A stretch of DNA of 64,000 nt from Luteibacter sp. UNCMF331Sha3.1 (GTDB taxonomy: Bacteria; Pseudomonadota; Gammaproteobacteria; Xanthomonadales; Rhodanobacteraceae): contig NZ_FOBU01000001.1 in assembly GCF_900109915.1 (NCBI RefSeq), forward strand, positions 626,764 through 690,763, written 5' to 3'. The translations under genes and the position numbers were made by a program. How positions within the stretch are numbered: position 1 is the stretch's first letter; each line of letters opens with the position of its first letter. Shown in pieces: positions 5,626 through 59,008 of this stretch. The notes under the pieces are model-generated. The model had not been told where the DNA came from. It made no database searches and was given only the letters and a program-made list of their open reading frames with translations.

Positions 5626-5631
5626 CGTCGT

Positions 5632-6441
5632 TTACTGCGGCAGCACTTCCAGCGTCGCCGTATAGGCGAGCCGGCGCTGCGTGGCGTCTTTCACCGACGT
5701 CTTCGCGTCCTCGGTCGACGCGTTCACCCAGTACATGCCGGCTTCCGGCCACGTGAAGCTGAACCTGCCGTCCTTGTCCGTCGTGGTGTCCAGTTCGTCC
5801 TGCTTGTTGCGGTAGCGCGTGCCGCCGTCGATGGCGACGACCTTGAGGTTCGCCGCCGGCTTGCCGTCGATGAGCAGCTGGAACGTCGCCTTCTCGCCCG
5901 CCATGAGGTCGTTCGGCTTCGTGACCGGCACGAGCTCCAGCCCCTTGTTGGTGGGCTTGAGCGCACCGTCGCTCGGCGAGCCCTGGGTCACGAACGTCTC
6001 CACGCGCGACGACATCTCGCTGACCTGCACGTTTTTCGCGCCAGCCGGGATCGCCGCCTTCAGTTCGGCAGGCGTGCCACGCCAGCGCTTCTTCTTGCCG
6101 TCGACCTCGTAGCTGGCGAACACGCCCTGGTTGACCAGCGCGAGGCGATAGGTGCCCTTCTGCGGCACGGCCAGGTCGAACGTGCTGCGGTACTTGCCCG
6201 TCGCTTCGTTCTCCGGCTTCACCGTCGAACCGTCGGGTGCGGTGATGACGAGCTGGTCGAGGCGGGCCGGAAAGTGGTCGGGGTAATACAGATCGTTGGA
6301 GACAGCGGCGTCCACCGTCACCCAGGCGTCGTCGCCGGAGATCACGGTGGCGGACGGCACCATCCACATCTTGTGCGCCTGCGCGGCGGCGGGCAGGACG
6401 AGGGCGGCGCAAAGGACCGCGCGTGCGAGAGCGTGCTTCAT
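5632..6441 (-). CDS. DUF4198 periplasmic protein (nickel/cobalt-transport-associated family)
   Basis: A 269-residue exported protein with a clear signal peptide (MKHALARAVLCAALVLPAAAQAHKMWM). The mature N-terminus His-Lys-Met-Trp is typical of DUF4198/GH25-type proteins found beside metal uptake systems. The body looks like two beta-sandwich domains, the second resembling a carboxypeptidase-regulatory fold (DGKPAANLKVVAIDGGTRY, TDKDGRFSFTWPEAGMYWV). Its molecular role is not established. Co-occurrence with PepSY, DUF2271 and ApbE suggests it binds a metal or ligand at the periplasmic face of the electron-transfer module. It starts 14 bp after the DUF2271 stop and ends 6 bp before apbE. Confidence 0.85.
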   Translation of the reverse strand: MKHALARAVLCAALVLPAAAQAHKMWMVPSATVISGDDAWVTVDAAVSNDLYYPDHFPARLDQLVITAPDGSTVKPENEATGKYRSTFDLAVPQKGTYRLALVNQGVFASYEVDGKKKRWRGTPAELKAAIPAGAKNVQVSEMSSRVETFVTQGSPSDGALKPTNKGLELVPVTKPNDLMAGEKATFQLLIDGKPAANLKVVAIDGGTRYRNKQDELDTTTDKDGRFSFTWPEAGMYWVNASTEDAKTSVKDATQRRLAYTATLEVLPQ

Positions 6442-6455
6442 CGGGAGGCTCCGTG

Positions 6456-6977
6456 TCAGGGATTGATGTCGAGGCTGATCTGGCCGAGCTCTTCGCCGCC
6501 CTTCGCGAAGAGGTGCTGGGGCGTCTTCGCCGGCCAGTCGAAAGCGATGCGCTGCGTATCGTGGCCACCGACTTCGCGGGCGGCCTCCACGACGAGTTCG
6601 TAATGCCCGGGCGCGAGCGTGCCGAGTGGCGCCTTGCCGTCGGTGAAGTGCAACTGGTGCTGGCCGGCGGGACGCGTGGCGCCCGACACGCCGTCGATCG
6701 GCATCGTCTGGTCGCGTCCGCCGCGGCGCCACCACTGCCGCATGTCTTTGAGCCACTTGGTGCCCTCGCCGTCGCCCTTCTTCATCTCGTACCAGACCGC
6801 GAGGTTGGCGACCGTGGCGTTGTCCCGCTCGATCCAGACGGCCACGTAGGGGCGGTGATACTCGCTCACCTTCAGCGTGGGGATCTCCACGGTGATGTTC
6901 ATGTCCGCGGCGCGGACCGGCACGGCAAACGCGAGGCACAGGGCGAACGGCAAAAGTCGGCGCATGAGTAAGTCCAT
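6456..6977 (-). CDS. DUF2271 periplasmic protein, predicted ApbE-flavinylated electron carrier
   Basis: A 173-residue exported protein: a signal peptide to about residue 24 (RRLLPFALCLAFAVPVRAAD), then one beta-rich DUF2271 domain. Residues 95-101 read DGVSGAT (bases 6675-6695), an exact match to the D-x-x-S/T-G-A-T/S flavinylation motif, so Thr101 is the predicted FMN attachment site. ApbE is encoded in the same operon. The start at 6977 shares one base with the PepSY stop (TGATG), which favours it over the internal ATG at 6965. The Trp- and Arg-rich segment before the motif (MRQWWRRGGRDQ) may help hold the flavin phosphate. I infer that it relays electrons from the membrane to a periplasmic acceptor such as ferric iron. 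Confidence 0.85.
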   Translation of the reverse strand: MDLLMRRLLPFALCLAFAVPVRAADMNITVEIPTLKVSEYHRPYVAVWIERDNATVANLAVWYEMKKGDGEGTKWLKDMRQWWRRGGRDQTMPIDGVSGATRPAGQHQLHFTDGKAPLGTLAPGHYELVVEAAREVGGHDTQRIAFDWPAKTPQHLFAKGGEELGQISLDINP

Positions 6978-7600
6978 CAGTGGATGAAAACGAGTGCGAG
7001 CACCACAGGGAGCACGAAACCGAGCGCGACCATCGGCCACGTCATGCCACGCTGGCCCGCGTGCATCTTGAGCAGCAAGAGGCCGGTGATCGCGAAGACC
7101 AGGCAGGCCAGCGCGAACGCGTCGATGAACCAGCTCCACACGGGACCCGTGTTGCGCCCTTTGTGCAGGTCGTTGAGATAGGCGAGCCAGCCGCGATCGG
7201 TGACCTCCGACTGCACCTCGCCGCTTTCGCGGTCGATGCTGACCCAGCCATCGCCACCCGGGCGCGGCAGCGATACATACACCTCGTCGTCGCTCCACTC
7301 GCCGCCGCGGCCTTCGATGGCGAGGCCGGTGCTGTCGCGCACGAACGACGCCACGGACGGTGGCACCGCCGCGCCCCTGGCGTGCTCGCCACCGAGCTGC
7401 CCCCGCAGCGGCGCCGGCAGCGTGGCGGCATGTCGCGTCGCCTGCGGGGACGCTTCGATGCGCGCGGCGTGGTTCAGCGTGAATCCCGTGACGGAGAACA
7501 GGAGCAGCACGACGAGCGACACCGCCGAACTGATCCAGTGCCAGCGGTGCAGGTGCTTGAGCCAAAACGCGCGGCGTTGCCGGTCGACGGTGTCGCGCAT
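6977..7600 (-). CDS. PepSY-associated TM protein
   Basis: A 207-residue membrane protein of the short PepSY_TM_like group. The basic start RQRRAFWLKHLHRWHWISS leads into a first helix (about 22-42). A roughly 100-residue periplasmic PepSY-like loop follows (VYVSLPRPGGDGWVSIDRESG, then WLAYLNDLHKGRNTGPVW), with two or three C-terminal helices. The His residues at the membrane borders could bind haem, as proposed for larger PepSY reductases. ATG at 7600 is chosen; an upstream TTG at 7657 would run over the putative Fur box. It is the first gene of a five-gene operon with overlapping or near-abutting joints, transcribed divergently from a two-component system. Confidence 0.85.
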   Translation of the reverse strand: MRDTVDRQRRAFWLKHLHRWHWISSAVSLVVLLLFSVTGFTLNHAARIEASPQATRHAATLPAPLRGQLGGEHARGAAVPPSVASFVRDSTGLAIEGRGGEWSDDEVYVSLPRPGGDGWVSIDRESGEVQSEVTDRGWLAYLNDLHKGRNTGPVWSWFIDAFALACLVFAITGLLLLKMHAGQRGMTWPMVALGFVLPVVLALVFIH

Positions 7601-7738: not shown

Positions 7739-8413
7739 ATGCGCATACTCCTAGCCGAAGACGACGCCGCCATCGCCGCGGCCGTGAAGTCCTCCCTCCA
7801 GCAGGGCGGGCATGCCGTGGACCACGTGTCGGACGGCAACAGTGCCGACCATGCCCTGCGCGACCACGACTACGACCTGCTGGTACTCGACCTGGGCCTG
7901 CCGATGCTCGACGGCAGCGACGTGCTGGCCCGCGCACGCAAACGCGGGTCCGGCGTGCCGGTACTCGTGGTCACCGCGCGCGAGGGGTTGAAGGAACGTG
8001 TCCGGGTGCTCGATCTCGGCGCCGACGACTACCTCGTGAAGCCCTTCGCGCTCGCCGAATTCGATGCGCGCGTGCGGGCCCTGCTCCGCCGGCGCACGAC
8101 CAACGGCACGCCGGAATTCCGCATCGGGCGTCTGCGTCTGGACATTCCCGGTCACCGCGCGTGGATCGGCGACGTCGCGCTCGACCTCACCGCCCGCGAA
8201 TTCGGGCTGGTGGAAGCGCTCGCGGCGCGTGCCGACAAGGTAACCAGCCGCGCGCAGCTCGTCGAAGCCCTGTGCAACTGGGACGAAGACCTCACGGACA
8301 ACGGCCTCGACATCGCGCTGCACCGCCTGCGCAAGAAACTGCAGGGCTCGGGCACCAGCGTGCGGACGATCCGCGGGCTGGGCTACCTGCTCGAAGAAAG
8401 CGCGGATGCCTGA
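7739..8413 (+). CDS. OmpR-family response regulator
   Basis: A 224-residue response regulator. The receiver domain (1-115) has the acidic pair ED at 8-9, phosphoacceptor Asp51 (LLVLDLGLP), a Thr switch (VVTARE) and Lys in YLVKPF. The C-terminal winged helix (about 125-220) ends with the usual NGLDIALHRLRKKL and IRGLGYLL. It resembles QseB/PmrA-type regulators. The kinase gene starts 8 bases before its stop. The gene is divergent from the PepSY-flavin operon and shares a promoter region with two dyads, so it may control that operon, though metalloregulation of the neighbour is an alternative. There is no Shine-Dalgarno sequence before the ATG. Confidence 0.95.
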   Translation: MRILLAEDDAAIAAAVKSSLQQGGHAVDHVSDGNSADHALRDHDYDLLVLDLGLPMLDGSDVLARARKRGSGVPVLVVTAREGLKERVRVLDLGADDYLVKPFALAEFDARVRALLRRRTTNGTPEFRIGRLRLDIPGHRAWIGDVALDLTAREFGLVEALAARADKVTSRAQLVEALCNWDEDLTDNGLDIALHRLRKKLQGSGTSVRTIRGLGYLLEESADA

Positions 8414-9815
8414 ACGCCGCACAGCGGCCGCGCGCCGGCCCGCACGGCCCAGCCTGCGCCGGCGCCTGCTCACCTTCCTGCTCGTGCCGGTGCTCGGCGT
8501 GCTGCTGCTCGACGCGGTGATCGGCTACTACGTCGCGCTGGCCTATTCGAACCGCGTGCACGATGCCGATCTTTCCGACTCCGCGCTCACGCTTTCCGAG
8601 ATGGTGGGCAACGATTCGCTGCGCGGCGAACTGACGGCGCAGGCGCGCTTCCTGCTCGAATACGACCCCGACGGCCGCAACTATTACGAAGTGATCAGCG
8701 ACCGACACGGCCGGATGATCGGTAACGCGGCACTCGCGGGCCCCGGGCATGCCGTCGTCACCGATGCGCCGCCCGTGCTCTACGACACCCTGCTCGGTCG
8801 ACGTCCGCTGCGCGCGGCCGTGATGCGCGTGCCGAGCCATCAGGAACGGGGCGACATGCTGACGATCACGGTGGCCGAGAACCTCCGCGACCGGCACATC
8901 CGGGCGCGCGAGATCCTGTTCCTGACCCTGCCGATGCAGGCGCTGCTGATCGTCGCGGTGCTCTGTCTCGTCTGGCTCGGCGTCAGCCACGGCCTCGGCG
9001 TGCTCGAACCGCTGACGTCGCGCCTGCGGCGTCGCGAGCACGATCTCGGGCCGATCGGCGAGGAAGACGTGCCGGTGGAGATCCTGCCGCTCACGCGCAC
9101 CATCGACGACCTGTTCGCCCGGATGCGCAACATGCTCGGCCTCCAGGAACGCTTCATCGCGGATGCCGCCCATCAGCTGCGCACCCCGCTGGCGGGGATC
9201 CAGCTGCACGTGGAGCGCCTGGAGGGCACGGAGGACACCGCGCAGCGCGCCGAGGCGCTGGGCCACATCCACCGGCTGGCCGCGCGCGCCGCGCGCACGT
9301 CGGCGCAGCTGCTCGCGCTCACGCGCACACAGTCCCCCGACCTGCCCGACCGGGACGGCATGACCATCATCGATCTCGCCGCCGTCGTGCCCGAGGCGGT
9401 AGGCATGCGTGTCCACCAGGCACTCGCGCTGGGCGTCGATCTCGGCTACGAGGGCATCGACGGACCGGTGCTCGTTCGCGGCGACGCGCTGCAGGTGCAG
9501 GAGGTCATCGACAACCTCGTGGACAACGCGTTCCACTATGCCGGGCGCGGACGCTGCGTGACGGTCTCGCTGGCCCGCGCCGGCGACGAGGCGCTCCTCG
9601 CGGTGGAGGACGACGGTCCGGGCGTCGACGACGCCTTCCTCGACCAGCTCGGCGAGCGGTTCTTCCGCGTACCGGGCTCCGACGAAGACGGCACGGGCCT
9701 CGGCCTCGCCATCGTCGAAAGCATCGCCGAACGCCATGCCGCGCGCGTGGCGTTCCGGCGCGCCGCGGCCGGCGGCCTCCGCATCGAGCTCCATTTCCCC
9801 GCCGTGACCCCGTAA
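8406..9815 (+). CDS. Sensor histidine kinase (QseC/TctE-like)
   Basis: A 469-residue membrane kinase. A basic N-terminus leads to a first helix (about 20-42). A periplasmic sensor of roughly 130 residues follows, of the two-component-sensor N-terminal type (NRVHDADLSDSALTL, then RHGRMIGNAAL), then a second helix (about 170-192) and a linker. The phosphoacceptor His256 lies in DAAHQLRTPL. The ATPase domain has the N-box DNLVDNAFHYA and G-boxes DDGPGVDD and GTGLGLAI. It overlaps the response regulator by 8 bases. The signal is not identifiable from sequence; the family includes tricarboxylate-, metal- and quorum-sensing kinases. Confidence 0.95.
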   Translation: MPERRTAAARRPARPSLRRRLLTFLLVPVLGVLLLDAVIGYYVALAYSNRVHDADLSDSALTLSEMVGNDSLRGELTAQARFLLEYDPDGRNYYEVISDRHGRMIGNAALAGPGHAVVTDAPPVLYDTLLGRRPLRAAVMRVPSHQERGDMLTITVAENLRDRHIRAREILFLTLPMQALLIVAVLCLVWLGVSHGLGVLEPLTSRLRRREHDLGPIGEEDVPVEILPLTRTIDDLFARMRNMLGLQERFIADAAHQLRTPLAGIQLHVERLEGTEDTAQRAEALGHIHRLAARAARTSAQLLALTRTQSPDLPDRDGMTIIDLAAVVPEAVGMRVHQALALGVDLGYEGIDGPVLVRGDALQVQEVIDNLVDNAFHYAGRGRCVTVSLARAGDEALLAVEDDGPGVDDAFLDQLGERFFRVPGSDEDGTGLGLAIVESIAERHAARVAFRRAAAGGLRIELHFPAVTP

Positions 9816-9887
9816 GGCGGGAAAGCCCGCTGAAACCCCCTGCTGGGACCATGACGCCATCGAATGAGATGGACGCGAGGCGTCGAC

Positions 9888-10724
9888 GTGAGCAATTCGG
9901 CGGCATTCCAGTACGAAGGCGGGCGCGACGGTGTCCTGCTGATCCATGGACTCACCGGCACGCCGTCCGAGATGCGCGCGGTCGGAAAGGGCCTGAACCG
10001 TGCCGGCTTCACGGTCGTCGGCGTGCAACTGGCCGGGCACTGCGGCAGCGAAAGCGACCTCGTCGCCACCACGTGGGAAGACTGGTATGCCAGCGTGGAA
10101 GCGGCGGCCGACGAGCTGCGCGGGCGTGTCGATCGCCTGTTCGTGGCGGGGCTGTCGATGGGCGCCGTGCTGGCGCTACGCCTCGCCGCCGTGCGTCCGG
10201 CGTGGGTCGCGGGCGTGGGTGTGTTCGGCGCCACGTTCCGCTACGACGGCTGGTCGATCGGCTGGACGGGGCGGCTCTCGTTCCTGCTTCCGGCGCTCAA
10301 GCGCCTCGGCATCGGCCAGCACCGCAGCTTCATCGAACAACCTCCGTATGGCATCCGCGACGAGCGTCTGCGCGCGCAGATCAGCACCGCGATGTTTTCC
10401 GGCGACAGCGAGGCGGCGGGCCTTCCGGGCAACCCCTGGCCCGCCCTCGCCGAAATGGTGGAACTCTCGCGCGACGTGCGCCGACGGCTGCCGCAGGTGG
10501 TGGCGCCGTGCTTCATCGCGCATGCCGCCGACGACGACGTGGCAAGCATCGCCAACGCGGACCTCGTGGCACGACGCGTGCGCGGTCCGATCGAGATGCT
10601 GCTGCTGGCGGACAGCTACCACATGATCACGATCGACCGCGAGCGCCGGATGCTCATCGAACGCACGGCCGATTTCTTCACACGAATCGCGCGCGAATCG
10701 CGACCGCACCGCATGGCGGCCTGA
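9888..10724 (+). CDS. Alpha/beta-hydrolase, Est30-like carboxylesterase
   Basis: A 278-residue soluble serine hydrolase. The oxyanion motif LIHGLTGTP comes near the N-terminus, the nucleophile elbow is GLSMGAV (Ser near 90), and the acid and His are expected in HAADDDVA and SYHMITID. The short N-terminus and internal cap fit the Est30/monoacylglycerol-lipase group. GTG at 9888 has GAGG about 9 bases upstream; an in-frame ATG at 9864 has no clear ribosome binding site, so the true start is uncertain by eight residues. The next gene follows after two bases, and the order esterase, two EamA half-transporters and DegT aminotransferase suggests one operon acting on a lipid-linked or acylated substrate. 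Confidence 0.8.
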   Translation: MSNSAAFQYEGGRDGVLLIHGLTGTPSEMRAVGKGLNRAGFTVVGVQLAGHCGSESDLVATTWEDWYASVEAAADELRGRVDRLFVAGLSMGAVLALRLAAVRPAWVAGVGVFGATFRYDGWSIGWTGRLSFLLPALKRLGIGQHRSFIEQPPYGIRDERLRAQISTAMFSGDSEAAGLPGNPWPALAEMVELSRDVRRRLPQVVAPCFIAHAADDDVASIANADLVARRVRGPIEMLLLADSYHMITIDRERRMLIERTADFFTRIARESRPHRMAA

Positions 10725-10726
10725 CG

Positions 10727-11086
10727 ATGCACGGCCTCGTCCTCACGCTGTGGATCGCCAACGTGGTCCTCGACACCGCGGGGCAACTCGCGTTCAAGGC
10801 GGCGGCCGGCGATGGCCGGGCGGGCGACGGTCTCGCCCGCTGGCGCTACATGTTCGCGCGCCCGTGGATCTGGACGGGCATCGCCTGCTACGTCGCCGAG
10901 TTCGTCGTGTGGATCGCGTTCCTCTCGCTGGTGCCGCTCTCGGAGGGCGTGCTGCTCGGATCGATCAACATCGTGGCGGTGATGGTGGCCGGTCGCATCC
11001 TGTTCCGCGAGAAGCTGAGCCCGCTGCGCGTCACGGGCATCCTGCTCGTCGCCGCGGGCGTGGCGATCGTGGGTGTCGGCTCATGA
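10727..11086 (+). CDS. Half-size EamA/SMR-type membrane transporter (ArnE-like)
   Basis: A 119-residue protein with four predicted membrane helices (about 3-20, 45-66, 72-90, 98-117), the size of one EmrE/ArnE subunit. The glycine-rich end (ILLVAAGVAIVGVG) is typical of the EamA/SMR fold. Such proteins work as homo- or heterodimers. A second half-size member follows with a 4-base overlap, so the two probably form a heterodimer like ArnE/ArnF, which flips undecaprenyl-phosphate-aminoarabinose. The substrate here is not known. The gene starts two bases after the esterase stop. Confidence 0.8.
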   Translation: MHGLVLTLWIANVVLDTAGQLAFKAAAGDGRAGDGLARWRYMFARPWIWTGIACYVAEFVVWIAFLSLVPLSEGVLLGSINIVAVMVAGRILFREKLSPLRVTGILLVAAGVAIVGVGS

Positions 11087-11481
11087 AGCGCTTCTACCTG
11101 GTGGGCTTCGCGCTGCTGCTGGCGTTCGACTCGCTCAACCTCGTCTGCTTCAAGATGGCGGGCACGCATGCGTTGCCCGTGGAGACGAGCGTCGCGTGGC
11201 TCGGGCGCGTCTTCTCGCATCCGTGGATCTACGGCGCGGTCGCGGGCTACGTCGGCGCGTTCGTCACGTGGATGAGCCTGCTGAAACACGCGCCGATCGG
11301 TCCCGCGTTCGCCGCGTCGCACCTGGAAGTCGTCAGCGTGATGCTGCTGTCGTGGTGGCTCTTCGCGGAACCCGTGACGCCCGTGCAGATCGCGGGCGCG
11401 GTCGCCATCCTCGCAGGCATCGCGTGCCTCGCGATCGCCGAGGGCGACGCGGAGGTCGAGCCCGATGCCGTTACGGCCTGA
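11083..11481 (+). CDS. Half-size EamA/SMR-type membrane transporter (ArnF-like partner)
   Basis: A 132-residue protein with four predicted membrane helices (about 4-22, 44-64, 75-93, 100-119) and a short acidic cytoplasmic tail (EGDAEVEPDAVTA). It is similar in plan to the preceding protein (both have WIYG/WIWTG before helix 2) but diverged, as expected for the second subunit of a heterodimeric flippase. It overlaps the upstream gene by 4 bases and the downstream aminotransferase by 17 bases, so the three are translationally coupled. Function as a lipid-linked sugar flippase is inferred from ArnE/F-type pairs. Confidence 0.8.
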   Translation: MKRFYLVGFALLLAFDSLNLVCFKMAGTHALPVETSVAWLGRVFSHPWIYGAVAGYVGAFVTWMSLLKHAPIGPAFAASHLEVVSVMLLSWWLFAEPVTPVQIAGAVAILAGIACLAIAEGDAEVEPDAVTA

Positions 11482-12673
11482 GCGCGAAGCGCCGCCCACC
11501 GCCGGCCTGCCCCTGCGTTGGTCCGACCTGCGCGGCACGGCGCCCGCGCCGCTCACGGCCCTCGCGGCGAACTGGCTCGGCGTCGGGCAGGTGCAGCTCG
11601 AATGCTCCGGCACGGCCGCGCTGACGATCGCGCTCTGCACGTTGTCCGAACATGCGCGCTCACGGCGCGAGGTCGTCATTCCCGCGTTCACGTGTCCGCT
11701 CGTGCCGCTGGCCATCCGCCGCGCGGGTCTCGTGCCGCGTCTGGTGGACCTGAAGGCCGGGCACTTCGACATGGACGCGGAGCGCCTCGCCGCCGCGTGC
11801 AACGAGCACACGCTGGCCGTCGTGCCGACACATCTCGGCGGGCGCCTGGCGGACGTGGCGACCGCCAACGCCATCGCGCACGGCGTCGGCGCGCGGACGA
11901 TCGAGGATGCGGCGCAGTCCCTCGGCGCCCGCGTCGGCGAGTCCTTCGCCGGCACGGTCGGCGACGTCGGTTTCTACAGCCTCGCGGCGGGGAAAGGCCT
12001 GTCGATCTTCGAAGGCGGCCTGCTCGTGGCCCGCGACGACAGCTGGCACGAACGCTTCCAGCGCACCTCGCGTCGCATGAGTCGCTGGCACCCCGGCTGG
12101 GAGATCCGACGCATGCTGGAGCTCGCCGGCTACGCCACGTTCTATCGCCCGCACGGCCTCGGCTTCGCCTATGGGCGGCCGTTGCGCGGCGCGCTGCGTC
12201 GCGGGGACCTGCTGGCTGCCGCCGGCGAGCATTTCAACGCGGATTTCCCCATGCACCGCGTGAGCAGATGGCGCGACGCGGTCGGCGCGCGCGCGTTCAC
12301 GCGGCTACCGGACTTCATCGCGACGACGACGGCGCAGGCGAAGAAACGCCTGCCGATGCTCGACACGTTGCCGGGCGTGACGGTGTTCCGCGACGACGGT
12401 GGCACGTGGCCATATCTGATGCTGATGCTGCCGGACGAAGCGACACGCGATGCGGTGCTGGCGCGACTCTGGCCGTCGCGTTACGGCGTGGCGCGCATGT
12501 TCGTGCACGCGTTACCGGATTACGACTACCTCGGCACGATGCCCGGCGGCGACGACGTGCCGAACGCGCGCGATTTCGCGGCCCGCACGCTGACGATCAC
12601 GAACAGCCCGTGGCTGGACGACGAGGCGTTCGGGGAAGTGCTAGGGGCGATCGAGGCGATCGTCACGCGCTGA
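11465..12673 (+). CDS. DegT/DnrJ/EryC1-family PLP aminotransferase
   Basis: A 402-residue fold-type I aminotransferase of the sugar-nucleotide family. Recognisable parts are the SGTAALTIAL cofactor-phosphate loop, PAFTCPLV, IEDAAQSLGA (pyridine-stacking Asp) and the Schiff-base lysine in LAAGKGLSIFEGG (Lys177). In this family the enzyme usually aminates a keto-sugar, for example ArnB in lipid A modification. The C-terminal half is divergent, so a non-nucleotide substrate is possible. It overlaps the second EamA gene by 17 bases. No other arn gene is present, so the operon is not a standard aminoarabinose locus. A REP palindrome begins 7 bases after the stop. Confidence 0.85.
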   Translation: MPLRPEREAPPTAGLPLRWSDLRGTAPAPLTALAANWLGVGQVQLECSGTAALTIALCTLSEHARSRREVVIPAFTCPLVPLAIRRAGLVPRLVDLKAGHFDMDAERLAAACNEHTLAVVPTHLGGRLADVATANAIAHGVGARTIEDAAQSLGARVGESFAGTVGDVGFYSLAAGKGLSIFEGGLLVARDDSWHERFQRTSRRMSRWHPGWEIRRMLELAGYATFYRPHGLGFAYGRPLRGALRRGDLLAAAGEHFNADFPMHRVSRWRDAVGARAFTRLPDFIATTTAQAKKRLPMLDTLPGVTVFRDDGGTWPYLMLMLPDEATRDAVLARLWPSRYGVARMFVHALPDYDYLGTMPGGDDVPNARDFAARTLTITNSPWLDDEAFGEVLGAIEAIVTR

Positions 12674-52049: not shown

Positions 52050-52071
52050 CGAGCCGCCACCGGGCTCCTAC
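52050..52071. repeat. Partial REP-like element (GTAGGAGC type)
   Basis: Minus-strand TGTAGGAGCCCGG with GGCTC/GAGCC arms. Its TAG is the LysR stop codon. Only one half resembles the family, so it may be a degraded copy. Confidence 0.4.
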
Positions 52072-52943
52072 AACGAACCCAGGAACGCCTCCAGCACCGC
52101 TCCTCGGTAGCGCTGCCGATGCAAGACCACCGACAGCATCCGCTTCAGGTCCAGGAATGGCGTCGGCAAGACCGTCAGCCGCCCGGCCGTCACCGCATCG
52201 CCCACCGCCACCTCCGGCAGGCAGGCGATGCCGAGGCCGGCGATGACCGCCTGCTTGATCGCTTCGGACTGGTCCAGCTCCAGCACCGTGGTGCCTTCCG
52301 GTAGCTCGGCGAGCGCACGCTCGCTCAAGGCGCGCGTCGCGGACCCGCGTTCGCGCAGCACCCATCGCTCGCCCGCGAAATCGTCGCGGCGCAGGCGCTT
52401 TTTCGACGCGAGCGGATGATCCGGTCGTGCGCAGACCACGAGGCGATCCTCCCGCCACGGACGGACTTCCAGCGACGGATGCGTGACCGGGCCTTCGACG
52501 CAGCCCACGTCGTAGTCGTGATCGAGGACGCCCTGCGCGATGCGAGCGGTGTTCGCCACGCCCAGACGCAGCGACACACCGGGATGCGACGCCGCGAAAG
52601 CCCCGAGCAGCTCTCCTACACGATAGTTGCCGACGGTATTGCTCGCGCCCACGCCGATGTCGCCGGTCAGTTCCGTCGCGCCGCCCTGGGCGCGGCGGCC
52701 GAACTCGGCATGGCGCTCCAGGAGCTCGCGCGCCAGCGGCAGGAGTTCACGACCGCGATCGTTGAGGCGCAGGCGGCCCCGCTCGCGGGCGAAGACCGGC
52801 GCACCGATCTGCCGCTCGAGTTCGGCCAGCGCCATGCTCGCGGCGGGCTGGCTGAGAAACAGGCGCTCGCTGGCTGCCCGCACGCTGCCCGCGGTGGCGA
52901 CCGCGACGAAGACCTCGAGCTGGCGGGGGCTGATGGCATGCAT
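52068..52943 (-). CDS. LysR-family regulator, YeiE-like
   Basis: A 291-residue LysR-type regulator. The N-terminal winged helix (about 5-65) reads ISPRQLEVFVAVATAGSVRAAS and LSQPAASMALAELE; the rest is a two-lobe effector domain. It is divergently transcribed from a YeiH-type transporter, the same pairing as yeiE/yeiH in enterics, where YeiE responds to sulfite in Cronobacter. Its stop TAG lies in a REP-like segment. An AT-rich operator region with three CTTAT/ATAAG half-sites lies between the two genes. Confidence 0.9.
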   Translation of the reverse strand: MHAISPRQLEVFVAVATAGSVRAASERLFLSQPAASMALAELERQIGAPVFARERGRLRLNDRGRELLPLARELLERHAEFGRRAQGGATELTGDIGVGASNTVGNYRVGELLGAFAASHPGVSLRLGVANTARIAQGVLDHDYDVGCVEGPVTHPSLEVRPWREDRLVVCARPDHPLASKKRLRRDDFAGERWVLRERGSATRALSERALAELPEGTTVLELDQSEAIKQAVIAGLGIACLPEVAVGDAVTAGRLTVLPTPFLDLKRMLSVVLHRQRYRGAVLEAFLGSL

Positions 52944-52951
52944 CAGCCTTT

Positions 52952-52987
52952 CTTATAGGATGAATAAGGTATTTTCAATATGCTTAT
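52952..52987. promoter_or_regulatory. LysR-type operator region, yeiE-yeiH divergent promoter
   Basis: CTTAT (52952-52956), ATAAG (52964-52968) and CTTAT (52983-52987) alternate in a clearly AT-rich patch. They give a short dyad and a longer ATAAG-N14-CTTAT dyad containing T-N11-A pairs, as expected for a LysR recognition and activation site. Confidence 0.5.
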
Positions 52988-53036
52988 CGAAGTGGCGCGT
53001 CGACAATGACGGCATCCGATCGTCAGGAAGTCGCCC

Positions 53037-54053
53037 GTGTCCGCCGTCACCGTCGCCACCCCCGCCCCCACGTCACGCCTGCCCGGCCTCGTGCTCTCAT
53101 TCGCCCTCGCCGCTGTCGCCTTCGGCCTCGGGCGCCTGATGCCGCTGGTCGGCGGCGCGGTCTGCGGCATCGTGCTGGGCATCCTCGTGCGGCATTTCAT
53201 GGCGCCATCGGCGCGATACCTGCCGGGCATCCGCTTCGCCTCGAAGCAGGTACTGCAATGGTCGATCGTCGCGCTCGGCTTCGGCCTCAGCATCACGCAG
53301 GTCGCGAAGACCGGCATGGAATCGCTCTCCGTCACGCTCGCGACCGTGGCCGCGGCGGGAATCGCCGCGTGGATCCTGGGCCGGCTGCTCCGCGTGCACG
53401 ACACGCTGAAGCTGCTGATCGGCGTCGGTACCGCGATCTGCGGCGGCTCGGCGATCGCGGCGGTGGTTCCCATCGTGAAACCGGACGAGCACGACACGGC
53501 GTTCGCCATTTCGACGATCTTCCTGTTCAACCTGGTGGCCGTGCTGACCTTCCCGGCACTGGGCCACTGGATGGGGCTGTCGGATCTCGGCTTCGGCCTC
53601 TGGGCCGGTACCGCCATCAACGACACGTCGTCGGTGGTCGCGGCTGGCTACAGTTACAGCCACGCGGCCGGCGATTACGCGACCATCGTCAAGCTCACGC
53701 GCGCCACGCTCATCATCCCCATCTGCCTCGCGATCGCACTGATCGTCGCGTGGCGCGAGAAGCGCGGCGGCGCGAGCGACTTCAGCCTGGCGCGCATCTT
53801 TCCCTGGTTCATCCTCTGGTTTCTCGTGGCCTCGGCCATCCGCACCGCCGGCGTGATTCCGGAAGCTGCACTTCCCGTCATCCATTTCGTCGCCGAGTGC
53901 CTGATCATCGTCGCGCTCACCGCCATCGGGCTGTCCGCCGACCTGCGTCGCATGGCGTCGACCGGCCCGCGGCCGATCCTGCTAGGACTCGGCGTCTGGG
54001 CCGCCGTGGCGCTGACGAGCCTGCTGGTGCAGCACCTGATCGGGCGCTGGTAG
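53037..54053 (+). CDS. yeiH: YeiH-family (UPF0324) membrane protein, putative sulfate/sulfite exporter
   Basis: A 338-residue protein with about 10 helices in the conserved UPF0324 plan: GIVLGILVRHFMAPS, SKQVLQWSIVALGFGLSI, GVGTAICGGSAIAAVVPIVKP and GTAINDTSSVVAAGYSYS are family blocks. GTG at 53037 is the start because AGGAAG lies six bases before it. The divergent LysR gene is its likely regulator. Members are proposed to export sulfur compounds; this is not proven. The last 72 bases overlap the convergent arginase-like gene. Confidence 0.9.
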   Translation: MSAVTVATPAPTSRLPGLVLSFALAAVAFGLGRLMPLVGGAVCGIVLGILVRHFMAPSARYLPGIRFASKQVLQWSIVALGFGLSITQVAKTGMESLSVTLATVAAAGIAAWILGRLLRVHDTLKLLIGVGTAICGGSAIAAVVPIVKPDEHDTAFAISTIFLFNLVAVLTFPALGHWMGLSDLGFGLWAGTAINDTSSVVAAGYSYSHAAGDYATIVKLTRATLIIPICLAIALIVAWREKRGGASDFSLARIFPWFILWFLVASAIRTAGVIPEAALPVIHFVAECLIIVALTAIGLSADLRRMASTGPRPILLGLGVWAAVALTSLLVQHLIGRW

Positions 54054-54932
54054 CAGCTCGGGTGGGAGCCAGCTCCCACCGATCATCGCAAGCAGCCGCA
54101 GGTTCAGCGCGTGCTGCTCTTCCTGCCACGCGCGAAGCCTCGCGACATCCGGTTCGGATTGACCGTCCATCGCACTCAGCCGGCGCTTCCACCACGCACG
54201 ATAGCGATACAGCGAGATCTCGCCCGTCACGTCGCTGGCGAGGATGCGATGACGAAGCGCACCGATGACGCGCGCTCCCTGTGCGAACGTCATGACGCCC
54301 TGATCCCAGTTGGTCGTCGCCACGTCCGGCGCGAACGCGTCCTTGTCGATGGAGAGGTACACGGGCGTCGCCTGTGCGTGCTGCGCATCGGCGAACGCGT
54401 CGGCCAGCGACGACGCGTCGGGAAAGCTGCGGAATGCACGACCCAGGCCGAGCCGCGATGCCCAGCCAACGTCGACGCCCGTCGACCAGTAGGTGAGCCG
54501 ACCGGCTCGCAGCGGGCCCAGGTAGTTCTCCCATGCATGGCCACCACCGATATCCGACGACGTGATGCCCACGACATGCACGTGCGAGACGCGTGGCAGC
54601 ATCGCCACGCGTCGCACCCAGGAGCCGCAGTGCACGCCGAACGGAAAGCGCATGTTGTCCGGGTGGTTGTCGAGCACCACGACCTGGAATGGGTCGGTGC
54701 CGCCCACGCGCCGCACCAGTGGCAACGTCAGGTGATGGAAATCGCCGCTGCCGAGGAAGACCGTGCCGTGCTCGCGCGGCAGCATCGCGTCGAGACGGCC
54801 GGCAAACCGCCGCAGCGTTCGCATGGAGCACCCGAACCGGATCGCTTCCTCCCACTCGCGCAGGGGCAGCACCCGCCGGCCGGGCAAGGGTCCGACGGAA
54901 TCGTCGAGATCAAGAACGACCGGTGGACGCAT
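53982..54932 (-). CDS. Arginase/agmatinase-fold protein (UPF0489-like)
   Basis: A 316-residue protein with ureohydrolase-type motifs in the right order but altered: GSGDFHH (canonical GGDH), VVLDNHPDN (canonical DxHxD) and YLSIDKDAFAPD (canonical SxDxDxxDP). Enough acidic and His residues remain to bind metal, so it may hydrolyse an amidine or amide C-N bond. ATG 54932 overlaps the upstream GNAT-like gene by 23 bases. The C-terminal 40 residues are coded by a REP palindrome and by sequence antisense to yeiH, so the native end was probably shorter. It is the last gene of a four-gene operon. Confidence 0.75.
   Translation of the reverse strand: MRPPVVLDLDDSVGPLPGRRVLPLREWEEAIRFGCSMRTLRRFAGRLDAMLPREHGTVFLGSGDFHHLTLPLVRRVGGTDPFQVVVLDNHPDNMRFPFGVHCGSWVRRVAMLPRVSHVHVVGITSSDIGGGHAWENYLGPLRAGRLTYWSTGVDVGWASRLGLGRAFRSFPDASSLADAFADAQHAQATPVYLSIDKDAFAPDVATTNWDQGVMTFAQGARVIGALRHRILASDVTGEISLYRYRAWWKRRLSAMDGQSEPDVARLRAWQEEQHALNLRLLAMIGGSWLPPELLPAPDQVLHQQARQRHGGPDAES
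54061..54080. repeat. REP palindrome (GTGGGAGC type, minimal)
   Basis: GGTGGGAGC and GCTCCCACC pair around CA. It lies just after the yeiH stop and inside the 3' coding end of the convergent arginase-like gene, where it is read as GGSWLPP-like residues. Confidence 0.85.
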
Positions 54933-55974
54933 CGGGCACTCCCCAGGCACGGTCGCTTTCAAAGCGGTGCGCGAACCGGCGCAGCACGGCACGCAGCAGC
55001 GGATTCCGTACGAAGACGGCGTGTCGCGTGAGGTGGAAGCGCGCACCGAGCGAGGCCTTCACCGCCGGATCGGTCCAGCCCGCCACGTAATGCGTGAGAC
55101 CGCGCCGGAGCGCGTAGTCGAGATTCACGAACCAGCTGACGAAGTACAGGTCGACGTCGCGTGCGGCGGGGTACGCGAAGCCCACGTACTTGTCGAGCAG
55201 CTTCCCGCCGTGCGCGAAGCACAGGTTCCAGCCGACCAGCTCGCCCTCCACGCGGTATGTGAAGACGATGCCGCCCGGATCGCGGAGCACGGCCGCGAAG
55301 AAGTCACGGCCCGGCTTGTCGAAGTGGATCTCGCTCTGCGCGTGCACGTTCTCGAACAGGGCGTAGAACGCGTCGACGGTCGCGTCGTCAGCGAACGACG
55401 CACCGGTAGGCACCTCGTCCACCTGGAGGCGGTCACGGGAACGCAGCTTGCGGCGGAGGTTCTTCCGTCGCGACGGCGACAGCCGTGCGAGGTACTCGTC
55501 GATCGAGGCGAAGTCGATCGGCACATACGCCAGCGCCTGCCCCTCCACGACGAGGTAGCCCGCGTCCCGCGCGGCGTCGAGAAAACGGGCGGTCCATGCC
55601 CGGTCCGTGCCGGTGGTCAGCGGCGAGTCCACGGCGATGTCCTTGACGACGAACAATGCCTGCCCGGCGCCTTGTTCGCGTACCCACGCCGCCGGCAGGG
55701 CCTCCGGCTGGCTCTCTCGGGCGAACACGGCGTACTCGGACACCGTCGTGCCCGCGAAACACGTCCGCAGCGTGAGGCGACGACGCAGCCAACGGCCGAA
55801 CGGTAGTCGATCCACGCGGCGACGCAGGGCGTCGTCGGCGGTGGTGAGAAGATCGAAGGGCGCCACGAAAAGTGGCGCGCCATCCGCCGCGCGGACAGGG
55901 GTGAAGTCCGGCGGCGGATGGCGCTCGAAATGCCCGAGCAGTGCGTCCGGCTCGAGCTGGTTCACGAACGCCAT
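54910..55974 (-). CDS. FemAB/GNAT-like acyltransferase
   Basis: A 354-residue protein with a GNAT-type fold of the FemAB-like (PF04339-type) group. A first domain (about 1-150) ends in VVEGQALAYVPIDFASIDEYL, then a basic helix SPSRRKNLRRKLRSRDRL. The second domain carries the acyl-donor region (IVFTYRVEGELVGWNL, KLLDKYVGFAYPAARDVDLY, NLDYALRRGLTHYVAG). Such proteins transfer an acyl or aminoacyl group to an amine. It lies 18 bp after the aminotransferase stop and overlaps the arginase-like gene by 23 bases. It could acylate the amino product of that aminotransferase; this is inference. Confidence 0.8.
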   Translation of the reverse strand: MAFVNQLEPDALLGHFERHPPPDFTPVRAADGAPLFVAPFDLLTTADDALRRRVDRLPFGRWLRRRLTLRTCFAGTTVSEYAVFARESQPEALPAAWVREQGAGQALFVVKDIAVDSPLTTGTDRAWTARFLDAARDAGYLVVEGQALAYVPIDFASIDEYLARLSPSRRKNLRRKLRSRDRLQVDEVPTGASFADDATVDAFYALFENVHAQSEIHFDKPGRDFFAAVLRDPGGIVFTYRVEGELVGWNLCFAHGGKLLDKYVGFAYPAARDVDLYFVSWFVNLDYALRRGLTHYVAGWTDPAVKASLGARFHLTRHAVFVRNPLLRAVLRRFAHRFESDRAWGVPDASTGRS

Positions 55975-55992
55975 CGCGGCGGCTGCCGGGTA

Positions 55993-57396
55993 TCAGCCGC
56001 GCTTGGCCAGCGTAAGCAGCTGGTCGAGCAACGCGATGGCGAGGTCGATTTCGTCGTGACTGATGTCGAGCGACGGGGCGAACGTGATCACGTTCTTGTA
56101 CCAGCCGCCGACATCGAGCACGAGACCGATCTTCTTGCCTTCGTGAGTGAGACCGCCGGCAAGGCCGATGTCGACCATGCGGTCGAGCAGCGCCTTGTTC
56201 GGCGTGAAACCGTCGTCCGTGCAGATCTCGGCACGAAGTGCGAGGCCGAGGCCGTCCACGTCGCCGATTTCCTTGTGACGCTTCTGCAGGTCGCGCAGAC
56301 CGTCGAGGAAGTGCGCGCCCTTCTCCGCCACCCTGCTGGCGTAGTCGAGCTCATACCCCATGCGGATCACCTCGAGCCCCAGCGCGGTGCCGAGCGGGTT
56401 CGAGTTGAACGTCGAATGCGTCGAGCCCGGCGGGAAGATCTCCGGATTGATGAGCTCTTCGCGCGCCCAGATACCCGACAGCGGATTGAGTCCGTTGGTC
56501 AGGGCCTTGCCGAAGACGAGAACGTCGGGCGTGACGCCGAAGTGTTCGATCGACCACAGCTTGCCCGTGCGCCAGAAGCCCATCTGGATCTCGTCGACCA
56601 CCATCAGGATGCCGTACTTGTCGAGCACCTTCTTCAGGTCGATGAAGAAATTGCGCGGCGGGATCACGTAGCCGCCGGTGCCCTGGATCGGCTCGACGTA
56701 GAAGGCCGCGTATTCGGCTTCGTTGACCTTCGGGTCCCATACGCCGTTGTATTCGGTTTCGAACAGGCGCTCGAACTGGCGCACGCACGCATCGGAGTAC
56801 TCTTCCGGCGTCATGCCTTTGGGGCGACGGAACGGGTACGGAAACGGGATGAACTGCGCGCGCTCGCCGAAATGACCGAAGCGACGGCGATAGCGGTAGC
56901 TCGACGTGATCGACGAGGCGCCGAGCGTCCGGCCGTGATAGCCGCCCTCGAAAGCGAACATCAGGCTCTTGCCGCCACGCGCGTTGCGCACCAGCTTGAG
57001 CGAGTCTTCGACTGCCTGCGCGCCACCGACGTTGAAATGGCAGCGGCCGTCGAGACCGAACTTCGCCTTCGCGTCGAGTGCGATGGTCTTCGCGAGCTCG
57101 ATCTTGCCCTGGTGCAGGTACTGGCTCGCGACCTGCGGAAGCAGGTCGATCTGCGCCTTCAGCGTGTCGTTGAGGCGCTTGTTGCCGTAACCGAAATTGA
57201 CGGCCGAGTACCACATCTGCAGGTCGAGGAACGGGATGTTCTCGCTGTCGTAGATGTAGCTGCCCTCCGCGTGGCGGAAGATCTTCGGCGGATCGACGTA
57301 GTGCACGGTATCGCCGAAGGAGCAGTACTTCGCCTCGTCGGCGAGAAGGGTCGCATCGTCGATCACGACGTCGGGGTTCTTGGTGAGGAGGTTCAT
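55993..57396 (-). CDS. Class III PLP aminotransferase (diaminobutyrate/ornithine type)
   Basis: A 467-residue fold-type I aminotransferase. The Schiff-base lysine is Lys297 in VFGKALTNGLNPLSG. Other features are FNVGGAQAVEDSLKLVRN, FEGGYHGRTLGA, the acidic VDEIQMGFWRTGKLW and HSTFNSNPLGTALGL. Class III enzymes usually move the omega-amino group of ornithine, lysine, GABA or diaminobutyrate. It starts with a 4-base overlap on the HAD-IB phosphatase gene and is followed by a FemAB-like gene. The phosphatase-aminotransferase-acyltransferase order suggests a short biosynthetic route. Confidence 0.92.
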   Translation of the reverse strand: MNLLTKNPDVVIDDATLLADEAKYCSFGDTVHYVDPPKIFRHAEGSYIYDSENIPFLDLQMWYSAVNFGYGNKRLNDTLKAQIDLLPQVASQYLHQGKIELAKTIALDAKAKFGLDGRCHFNVGGAQAVEDSLKLVRNARGGKSLMFAFEGGYHGRTLGASSITSSYRYRRRFGHFGERAQFIPFPYPFRRPKGMTPEEYSDACVRQFERLFETEYNGVWDPKVNEAEYAAFYVEPIQGTGGYVIPPRNFFIDLKKVLDKYGILMVVDEIQMGFWRTGKLWSIEHFGVTPDVLVFGKALTNGLNPLSGIWAREELINPEIFPPGSTHSTFNSNPLGTALGLEVIRMGYELDYASRVAEKGAHFLDGLRDLQKRHKEIGDVDGLGLALRAEICTDDGFTPNKALLDRMVDIGLAGGLTHEGKKIGLVLDVGGWYKNVITFAPSLDISHDEIDLAIALLDQLLTLAKRG

Positions 57397-58133
57397 GCAG
57401 ACAGTTCCTGGATACTCGCCGCGTGGAGGGGCATGACGGTCCGCGGCGGCAGGCGTCCGTCGAGAAGATCGGGAAGGAGGGCCAGCGCTTCGTCGAAGCT
57501 GGCGATCGGGGCATACGGGATACCGGCGGCACGGCAGTGCTCGATCAGCCGGTTTTTCGCGAAGACGAAGTCCACACGATCGGCCGCGCAGAAATCCGAC
57601 GCGCCGTCGCCGATCAGCAGCGTGTAGCCGCCACGGCGGCGAGCCGCGTCGACGCGGGCGCACTTGCACGTGCCGCTGCGACATCCGTCGGCCGCGAACG
57701 GCGAGGAGAGACGCCACGCGCGCGGCCCGGACTGGGCAAGTCGGTTCGCAACGGTCGGCAGACCGTCGATGCCGTGACGTTCGAGGATCGTGTGGATCGC
57801 CTGATCGAGGCCGTCGCTGACGATCTCCATCGGAATGCCGTGCTCGATCGTGGCGGCGACGAAGGCCGCGAAGCCGTGGTCGATGTGCAGGCTACCGAGA
57901 TGGCGCTGGAGATCGTCGCGACTCATGTCGAGCAGTGCGACCTGGCCCGCCATGCATTCGGCGGAGCCGATCAGCCCTGCACGCCAGTCGCGTTCCAGCG
58001 CGTCCCAGCCGGGGCGGCCGTAGCGGTCGAGCAGCGAGTCGATGACGTCCTCGACGGCGATCGTGCCGTCGAAGTCGCACAGGATGTTCCAGGAGGGAGA
58101 GCTGAGCACGTAGTAAGCGCCATCGGCCAACAT
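57393..58133 (-). CDS. HAD-IB phosphatase (MtnX/phosphoserine-phosphatase-like)
   Basis: A 246-residue HAD subfamily IB phosphatase. Motif I is CDFDGTIAVEDVID, motif II the EIVSDGLDQA Ser and motif IV LLIGDGASDFCAADRVD. An insertion with GCRSGTCKCARVDAAR (three Cys and His-poor) replaces part of the core, as in MtnX-like proteins. It releases phosphate from a phospho-acid or phospho-alcohol and is the first gene of the four-gene operon. ATG 58133 has only a weak ribosome binding site; an upstream GTG/TTG cannot be excluded. A 12-bp-arm inverted repeat lies just upstream. Confidence 0.88.
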   Translation of the reverse strand: MLADGAYYVLSSPSWNILCDFDGTIAVEDVIDSLLDRYGRPGWDALERDWRAGLIGSAECMAGQVALLDMSRDDLQRHLGSLHIDHGFAAFVAATIEHGIPMEIVSDGLDQAIHTILERHGIDGLPTVANRLAQSGPRAWRLSSPFAADGCRSGTCKCARVDAARRRGGYTLLIGDGASDFCAADRVDFVFAKNRLIEHCRAAGIPYAPIASFDEALALLPDLLDGRLPPRTVMPLHAASIQELSA

Positions 58134-58153: not shown

Positions 58154-58190
58154 ATTCCTTTCGAACCCCTTTCCCGGATTCGAAAGGAAT
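58154..58190. promoter_or_regulatory. Perfect 12-bp inverted repeat between divergent genes
   Basis: ATTCCTTTCGAA (58154-58165) and TTCGAAAGGAAT (58179-58190) are exact complements separated by 13 bases. It lies between the HAD-IB operon and the MipA-like gene, so it is a candidate operator for one or both, or a 5' hairpin. Confidence 0.5.
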
Positions 58191-58243
58191 TCGTAAGCAG
58201 GGGCGTGCCACCCTTCGTCGCTCGTCCGCACCGGTATCCGCGC

Positions 58244-59008
58244 ATGCACCGCTGGCGCCCCGCCCTGACCGCCCTGCTCTTCCTTCCGCTGGCCGCGCAC
58301 GCCGCGGACGACGACGCGCCCTCGTATGCGTTCGGCGCGGGCGCGCAACGCATGCCGTCGTGGCAAGGTGCGAAAGACCAGCGCAACCAGCCGATTCCCT
58401 ACGTGGACATCGAAATCCCCGGCGTCGGCGAACTGTCGACGGCGGACGGCCTGACGCTCGACGCGATCGGTGGCGAGCACTGGCACGGCGGTGCTTACGG
58501 CAACTGGCTCTGGGGCCGCACGCGCGACGACCTCGGCGCGCTCGGCGGCAAGGTCGCGTCGCTGTCGCCGCGCTTCCAGGCCGGTGGCTATCTGGAGTAT
58601 GCGTTCGACAAGCGCTTCAGCGTCGGCGGACATGTGGCACACGACACGAACGGTGCGGGCGCCTATGCGGCGCTCTACGCCGATTACCAGTTACCGGACG
58701 TCTGGTACATCCAGCACTCCATCGAAGTGCAGGTCGAAGGCATGAACGGACCGGCGATGCGGCGCTTCTTCGGCCTCACGCCCGCCGAGGCCGCCACGTT
58801 GGGGACATCGTCATGGCACCCCGGTGCCGGCTGGCAGTCGGCCGACGTGGCGTACAACGCGTTCGTGCCGACGTCGCAGCACACGGGCTTCGCGCTGGCG
58901 GTGTCGTATGGACGGCTATTCGGCGACGCCGGCGACAGCCCGCTGGTGCGACGGTTCGGTTCGACGAGGCAGGTCACGGAGACGCTGGCGTTCGTCTACC
59001 ACTTCTGA
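58244..59008 (+). CDS. MipA/OmpV-family outer membrane protein
   Basis: A 254-residue exported beta-barrel protein. The signal peptide is MHRWRPALTALLFLPLAAHA, and the mature part begins SYAFGAGAQRMPSW. It has the repeating short beta strands of MipA/OmpV and ends in aromatic FVYHF, which suits BAM-mediated insertion. The penultimate RRFGSTRQVTETLA block is family-specific. MipA scaffolds murein synthase assembly in E. coli. A GTG at 58205 is possible but would prefix the signal peptide, so ATG 58244 is chosen. It is divergent from the HAD-IB operon. Confidence 0.85.
   Translation: MHRWRPALTALLFLPLAAHAADDDAPSYAFGAGAQRMPSWQGAKDQRNQPIPYVDIEIPGVGELSTADGLTLDAIGGEHWHGGAYGNWLWGRTRDDLGALGGKVASLSPRFQAGGYLEYAFDKRFSVGGHVAHDTNGAGAYAALYADYQLPDVWYIQHSIEVQVEGMNGPAMRRFFGLTPAEAATLGTSSWHPGAGWQSADVAYNAFVPTSQHTGFALAVSYGRLFGDAGDSPLVRRFGSTRQVTETLAFVYHF

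Follow-up and report, generated by a model that had tools for sequence, protein, structure and literature searches.

A conserved four-gene unit in Luteibacter appears to be the junction of two modules in a larger locus that may make an amine-bearing lipid

We analysed a 64,000 nucleotide stretch of contig NZ_FOBU01000001.1, from Luteibacter sp. UNCMF331Sha3.1, hereafter called the window. Towards one end are four minus strand genes, which an earlier reading of the sequence (the original prediction) had described as a biosynthetic-looking operon. The genes encode an MtnX-like HAD-IB phosphatase (HAD; 57393-58133, 246 residues), a class III enzyme dependent on pyridoxal phosphate (AT; 55993-57396, 467 residues), a FemAB/GNAT transferase (FemAB; 54910-55974, 354 residues), and an arginase-fold hydrolase (ARG; 53982-54932, 316 residues). 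HAD and AT overlap by 4 nucleotides (57393-57396), AT and FemAB are separated by 18 (55975-55992), and FemAB and ARG overlap by 23 (54910-54932). All four open reading frames (ORFs), their strand, and the three junctions reproduce what was originally described. The family labels also agree with our searches, where each protein exceeds Pfam gathering scores (PF12710 for HAD, PF00202 for AT, PF13480 and PF04339 for FemAB, and PF00491 for ARG). Note that the ARG ORF ends about 30 residues beyond those of many relatives; its end shares 72 bp with the convergent YeiH gene (53037-54053, plus strand).

HAD matches PF12710 at 49.6 bits and falls within the MtnX-like HAD-IB subfamily (TIGR01489, 88.8 bits with an NCBIfam cut-off of 81.55). 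The nearest solved structure, by sequence, is MtnX (PDB 2fea). Conversely, HAD fails the MtnX equivalog models TIGR03333 and PRK09552, scoring 85 and 90 bits where 303 and 292 are required. Residues D20, D22, S106, K157, G175, D176, and D180 are invariant over 19 aligned rows. Cys60, Cys151, Cys156, Lys157, Cys158, Cys182, and Cys200 are likewise invariant. AT belongs to the class III family (PF00202, 240 bits), with mean column identity of 85% across 23 sequences. Residue K297, which we take to be the catalytic lysine, is invariant. Solved proteins nearest to AT in sequence are aminotransferases and amino-acid racemases. At the position of invariant Thr438, three aligned solved relatives have arginine; we record this change and do not take it as proof of substrate. 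Among the best 25 of 69 NCBIfam models, AT is below every cut-off (dat, 178 versus 402; Orn_aminotrans, 172 versus 378). No Ect model is among these 25, and EctC was not searched for. Nothing beyond enzyme class supports the likeness to ectoine synthesis first proposed.

For FemAB, the predicted model has a pLDDT (predicted local distance difference test) of 91, and sequence searches gave no credible solved relative. At E values of 7e-12 to 3e-8, the 27 best Foldseek matches are FemX, MprF/LPG (lysyl-phosphatidylglycerol) synthase domains, and aminoacyl-tRNA-dependent peptide synthases. Such matches would suit a variant of MprF or FemX, where FemAB aminoacylates a lipid or amine via aminoacyl-tRNA, other enzymes modify the amino group, and a pair of small EamA proteins, described below, flips the product. 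We consider this unlikely. Template modelling (TM) scores, normalised by query, are only 0.47-0.56, with identities of 10-20%, and dual-GNAT folds use many donors. Furthermore, genes for an acyl carrier protein (ACP) and a ketosynthase (KS), each present at 54 of the 84 loci considered below, point to an acyl donor.

The predicted ARG model has a pLDDT of 85, and is poor toward its last part. Its best folds are ureohydrolases, with query-normalised TM scores of 0.34-0.50 among the 50 matches listed. Sequence matches to solved structures are marginal, the best being an agmatinase at E 0.004 and an arginase at 0.0065, and no NCBIfam model matches at E <= 0.001. PF00491, the fold, and aligned GD-H, D-x-H-P-D, and S-I-D-x-D motifs place ARG in the arginase superfamily. 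Residues H66, H67, D88, H90, D92, H101, D196, and D198 are invariant in 17 rows, including Rhizobium and Agrobacterium forms; the serine of S-I-D-x-D is not. The conserved motif residues presumably include the six metal ligands. By fold and predicted ligands, ARG is a member of the ureohydrolase (arginase) superfamily. Taken with the solved relatives of AT, this membership could indicate ordinary breakdown of arginine, ornithine, or polyamines, with ARG acting as an arginase and AT as an aminotransferase of the ornithine type. We regard that as most improbable, given the scores of AT, its invariant threonine, and the lack of ARG matches to NCBIfam models. Co-inheritance with genes for an alpha/beta hydrolase (ABH) and a DegT-type aminotransferase, and linkage to EamA, KS, and ACP genes, argue against it too. 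The original prediction would have been undermined if AT were an ordinary ornithine or diaminobutyrate enzyme acting alone. This does not appear to be so, because AT is under all cut-offs in the 25 best models considered, and travels with HAD.

The surroundings of the genes were compared at 84 loci. Eighty (L021-L100) are the top-ranking among 176 relatives that a search with the ARG protein returned, so ARG is present there by construction. The other four are plasmid loci found with AT. Contig ends and 8-kb flanks lower all neighbourhood counts, and ORF starts were chosen by script. By tblastn at E <= 1e-6, FemAB and ARG genes were each found at 84 loci, AT at 71, and HAD at 60. Frequent companions are two EamA genes (EamA1, 64; EamA2, 61), DegT (63), ABH (61), KS (54), and ACP (54). 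An ABC ATPase (56), HlyD (50), an ABC permease (45), TolC (36), a sensor histidine kinase (HK; 31), MipA (24), and a CFA (cyclopropane fatty acid) synthase (12) were also detected. Note that low-identity matches to the ABC ATPase, and some to KS, are probably unrelated paralogues. The FemAB gene is 300 bp or less upstream of ARG in all 80 named loci. Of the 56 loci that have both genes, 43 have HAD next to AT; the other 13, of the Comamonas/Delftia type, have HAD 5-11 kb from AT. In Rhodanobacter, the typical order (L026) is HAD-AT, KS-ACP in the opposite orientation, FemAB-ARG, then DegT-EamA-EamA-ABH-HlyD-ABC-TolC-HK on the other strand. On plasmids of Rhizobium and Agrobacterium, HK and response regulator genes are followed by HAD-AT-ARG-permease-(desaturase)-ABH-GNAT-EamA-(CFA synthase), with the desaturase gene in Rhizobium locus L103.

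Distribution was assessed in 147 genomes of the family, with thresholds of E <= 1e-150 for AT, 1e-5 for ARG, 1e-70 for DegT, and 1e-60 for ABH. We divided ARG matches into strong and distant forms using a split of our own. ABH was present in 122 genomes, ARG in 100 (86 strong and 14 distant), AT in 96, and DegT in 93. All four were found in 71 genomes and none in 24. The other patterns are strong ARG, DegT, and ABH without AT (14 genomes), AT and ABH alone (13), distant ARG with ABH (10), AT with DegT and ABH (8), distant ARG with AT and ABH (3), ABH alone (2), distant ARG alone (1), and ARG with AT and ABH but not DegT (1). In a phylum-wide set of 398 genomes, AT orthologues (E <= 1e-180) occur in 24. 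Since the ARG query matches 100 of the 147 family genomes, and FemAB-ARG and HAD-AT linkages are conserved, the four genes are not a chance association. The initial view of them as conserved, linked, and biosynthetic-looking is supported.

In the same data the genes behave as two units of inheritance. ABH accompanies AT in 96 of 96 genomes, strong ARG in 86 of 86, DegT in 93 of 93, and distant ARG in 13 of 14. DegT is present in 85 of the 86 strong-ARG genomes. Conversely, strong ARG is absent from 24 of the 96 AT genomes, and AT from 14 of the 86 with strong ARG. Where AT and strong ARG occur together (72 genomes) they share a contig in 58 and are within 15 kb in 49. HAD and AT occur without FemAB or ARG at L138-L141 and L149, and four distant genomes (L170, L171, L173, and L174) have AT, HAD, ABH, and KS with no FemAB or ARG detected in the stretch examined. 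At two of these (L171:6420-7157 and L173:6828-7565), a 245-residue protein, alike by eye, is encoded beside ABH-AT-HAD-KS-ACP; the L171 copy has no Pfam match. FemAB and ARG occur without AT nearby at L144-L148, and the genome with L144 (G035) has AT elsewhere. On these patterns, module A comprises HAD and AT, and module B comprises FemAB, ARG, DegT, and two EamA proteins, often with KS and ACP; ABH is common to both. Loci L152 and L153 (G016 and G088) have Rhizobium-type GNAT, ARG, and permease genes together with KS-ACP, and DegT is absent from the vicinity of HAD-AT; this is apparently a second, interchangeable form of module B.

In the original prediction, a short route through just these four enzymes would yield an acylated diamino or amidino metabolite, by a logic reminiscent of ectoine but with other enzymes. 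Tight gene overlaps and the enzyme classes are consistent with this, as is a Bartonella plasmid with AT-GNAT-ARG and none of the other partners in the 25 kb examined. We nevertheless find such a self-contained route very improbable. HAD with AT, and FemAB with ARG, each occur without the other, ARG tracks DegT, AT tracks ABH, and a promoter box, described below, extends to ABH and ACP genes. It was also recognised originally that unlinked genes in relatives would count against a single operon. In part this is the case; AT and ARG are within 15 kb in 49 of 72 genomes, and each also occurs without the other.

The remaining partners are in the window, about 41 kb away, as a plus strand series at 7739-12673. 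First is an OmpR-type response regulator, PmrA/TctD-like (RR; 7739-8413; PF00072 and PF00486), scoring 208 bits for TctD and 202 for PmrA, under cut-offs of 337 and 330. A QseC/PmrB-like HK follows (8406-9815), recognised by NCBIfam models below their cut-offs (QseC, 189 bits versus 475; PmrB, 133 versus 314). Next are ABH (9864-10724, exact start uncertain; PF12146), and the small ArnE/ArnF-like proteins EamA2 (10727-11086) and EamA1 (11083-11481), both matching PF00892. ArnE and ArnF are the sole NCBIfam models matched by this pair, at 32 and 25 bits for EamA2, and 21 and 20 bits for EamA1, with cut-offs of 92 and 99. Last is a DegT/DnrJ/EryC1/StrS aminotransferase (DegT; 11465-12673; PF01041), which scores far under cut-off with all of its closest NCBIfam models, mostly those of nucleotide-sugar aminotransferases. 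The X. sacchari cluster has protein matches in the window at ABH (9894-10679, 72%), the EamA pair (10721-11442, 60-62%), and DegT (11486-12658, 49%). Hence, the statement that no regulator or exporter is present was right for the four genes, and wrong for the locus, which has two-component and flippase-like pairs at 7739-11481.

In Pinirhizobacter L074 the two halves are contiguous, as HAD-AT-FemAB-ARG and then DegT-EamA1-EamA2-ABH-HK-RR. All ten genes are also together at L156, L177, and L178, in three genomes of one genus from another family of the order. Other Luteibacter share the split: DegT and ARG are separated by about 41-55 kb in G010, G033, G047, G112, G133, and G143, on separate contigs in G062, and adjacent in G076, G101, and G123. 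Genome G089 keeps AT and ABH, with no ARG or DegT match; its AT region has HAD and no FemAB match. The comparison shows a rearrangement, in this Luteibacter clade, that moved RR, HK, ABH, EamA2, EamA1, and DegT about 41 kb away.

The predicted promoter box is a direct repeat, GAAAGG-N5-GAAAG, followed by CTAGGCT, before the HAD gene (58158-58173, minus strand). Its 11-bp period is that of OmpR-family sites. Among HAD ORFs of L021-L100 with enough upstream sequence, 41 of 53 have the strict box, and 3 more were too short to assess. The 12 without it are L069 and 11 loci with a displaced minus strand HAD (Comamonas, Delftia, and relatives). A CTA--cT element follows the box at a nearly fixed distance. 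In 1.21 Mb there are 43 strict sites, where 0.2 are expected; 42 precede HAD (the partial HAD of L047 included) and the other is in L085. Across the 147 genomes, box plus CTA occurs at 62 sites in 60 genomes, compared to 13 for a reversed control pattern. In 55 of the 62 cases the site is 745-886 bp before AT on the same strand, i.e. just upstream of HAD-AT. The single site in the Luteibacter genome studied is at the four-gene operon. Loci L138, L140, and L149 have the box without CTA.

Near matches (>= 9/11 positions) precede ABH in 44 of 58 loci, ACP in 39 of 52, TolC in 6 of 29, and FemAB in 11 of 80; the random rate is 0-3%. In the window, a weaker copy (9/11) is before ABH (9821-9836, plus strand). 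Sharing of one predicted OmpR-type box between the transcription units is thus strongly suggested, so that they would be induced together. The RR/HK pair of the locus is probably the regulator. Contiguity of the halves in relatives, co-occurrence of ABH and DegT, and the shared box show that the four-gene unit is where two modules of a larger locus meet, apparently under one regulator. An inverted repeat at 58157-58187 was rejected as the conserved feature: among the other loci compared, its strict form is only in L021 (L117 is the stretch of the window itself). What is conserved is the direct repeat that it contains. A promoter and terminator scan gave 0 promoter-like sites, and 3 terminator-like sites where 1.9 are expected.

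What might the locus make? Inferred chemistry points to an amine-bearing lipid or amphiphile as the most likely product. With moderate confidence, we propose that the two-module locus is one regulon making such a molecule, which the ArnE/ArnF-like pair flips. AT and HAD would form an amino head group or remove its phosphate, and FemAB would join this group to an acyl chain from ACP; alternatively, FemAB may add an amino acid from aminoacyl-tRNA. ARG could trim an amidine or amide, DegT add a further amine, and ABH cleave or recycle an ester. Assembly would take place either in the cytosol or on the inner leaflet, and the EamA pair would then flip the amine-bearing lipid across the inner membrane to its outer face. 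Regulated change to the cell envelope would be the purpose, with logic comparable to the arn operon and MprF. Besides KS and ACP, the CFA synthase at 12 of 84 loci, and the desaturase gene of L103, support a lipid context. For an N-acyl-serinol, with AT and HAD deriving serinol from dihydroxyacetone phosphate, a literature search gave nothing, and we did not adopt the idea.

Several observations weigh against this proposal. The direction proposed for every reaction is guesswork and no enzyme is assigned a substrate. The ArnE/ArnF, PmrA, and PmrB models are matched below cut-offs, and the counts, coming from related genomes, are not independent. The box is found at 0 of 11 Comamonas/Delftia-type HAD loci, and 41 of the 96 AT genomes lack strict box plus CTA before HAD-AT, although some of these (with L138, L140, and L149) have the box alone. 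Allowing one mismatch, a scan of the Luteibacter genome found 42 sites, compared to 54 for the control, and so no further regulon members above control. The same genome has no close KS (best, 45%), and no match, at E <= 1e-8, to the ABC permease of exporter-bearing relatives. Hence, in this case, ordinary fatty-acid synthesis would have to supply any acyl chain, and some other route would be needed to take a product past the inner membrane. Finally, an HlyD-ABC-TolC exporter is attached to the locus in many relatives (HlyD, 50 of 84 loci), and this is as compatible with a secreted compound as with a membrane lipid.

Indeed, the same locus could produce a secreted amphiphile or chelator, such as an antimicrobial, signal, or metallophore, exported by HlyD-ABC-TolC. 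At L138-L141, HAD-AT is beside ABC genes without FemAB or ARG, and TolC is present at L138 and L139. A TonB receptor and DUF4198 flank the Delftia-type loci L087, L094, and L099, and also L160. A metallophore was considered because of these genes, and because PepSY/DUF4198 genes adjoin the second half of the locus in the window. Although possible, we think a secreted product somewhat unlikely. The ABC permease is unmatched in our genome and three other Luteibacter (five genomes were searched and only G246 matched), and the TonB/DUF4198 association is confined to one lineage. The EamA pair (64 and 61) and ABH (61) also outnumber HlyD (50) and TolC (36), with the caveat that short flanks lower the HlyD and TolC counts.

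Other genes border the locus. PepSY_TM-like and DUF4198 genes (4597-7597, minus strand), presumably with DUF2271 and ApbE genes, are divergent from RR. We rejected this group as part of a metallophore system; it is probably a mere neighbour, since it simply borders RR in L074, L142, and L143. A MipA/OmpV outer-membrane protein gene (58205-59008, plus strand) is divergent from HAD and of uncertain membership in the locus. It is faced by a possible mirror copy of the box (10/11; 58182-58197, plus strand), and matches of >= 10/11 precede MipA in just 1 of 24 loci. MipA-like genes are in or beside distant versions of the locus at L104 (by annotation) and L164-L166 (25-28% identity). Past ARG, a LysR regulator nearest the YeiE model is divergent from the YeiH-like transporter (52068-54053), both below cut-offs; this pair also adjoins the locus in L022-L024 and L149. 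Elsewhere in the genome is a tandem KS pair (G000:C10:314935-317369), 36-40% identical to KS of the locus, which we take to be possibly part of an aryl polyene/xanthomonadin-type cluster.

In keeping with the original suggestion of a previously undescribed system, a term search of open-access literature found no description of the gene set. The arginase and ornithine aminotransferase genes described in PMC11547076 probably represent ordinary arginine catabolism. The polar lipids of Luteibacter mycovicinus reportedly include an aminolipid whose structure is not stated (PMC11165876); the locus, if that strain carries it, is a candidate source. If our proposal is correct, an inducible envelope-tailoring system is present in many soil and plant bacteria, namely Lysobacterales, Comamonadaceae, and, on plasmids, Rhizobiaceae. 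Annotation pipelines now name the genes as scattered generic enzymes. With its promoter box, the regulon is open to direct test. More tentatively, the product could be an undescribed class of amine-bearing envelope lipid. It would have a dedicated acyl or aminoacyl pathway (with its own KS and ACP in many lineages), a diverged ArnE/ArnF-type flippase pair, a dedicated two-component switch with an almost single-copy box per carrying genome, and two separately heritable modules spread over gamma-, beta-, and plasmid-bearing alpha-proteobacteria.

Known systems share individual parts with the locus. MtnX, the methionine-salvage phosphatase, is the closest solved structure to HAD, in the same HAD-IB subfamily, but HAD scores far below the MtnX cut-offs and is partnered here by AT. 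Guanidinobutyrase, agmatinase, arginase, and metformin hydrolase are ureohydrolases with the fold and metal-ligand motifs of ARG. However, ARG is distant from these in structure and sequence, as the scores above indicate, and has motifs of its own (GSGDFHH, DNHPDN, and NWDQG). Synthesis of ornithine lipids, by OlsB and OlsA, is alike in the possible GNAT-type N-acylation of an amine; in contrast, no OlsA-like acyltransferase was recognised in the locus, which has AT, HAD, ARG, and DegT in addition. The aminoacyl-phosphatidylglycerol synthase MprF/LpiA, and FemX, have the dual-GNAT fold of FemAB. The likeness is one of fold; FemAB, with 354 residues, has no fused flippase domain and 10-20% identity. 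The arn operon (pmrHFIJKLM), with PmrAB, adds 4-amino-4-deoxy-L-arabinose (L-Ara4N) to lipid A. As with arn, the locus has two small EamA proteins nearest ArnE and ArnF, a DegT-type aminotransferase, and a PmrA/PmrB-like pair. Unlike arn, it adds AT, HAD, FemAB, ARG, ABH, and often KS and ACP, and the models are matched below cut-off; other arn genes were not recognised in the locus (they were not searched for genome-wide). The locus has parts like those of arn, MprF, and GNAT-type aminolipid synthesis, but reaches no cut-off among the arn and Pmr-type models tested, and our searches found no published description of it.

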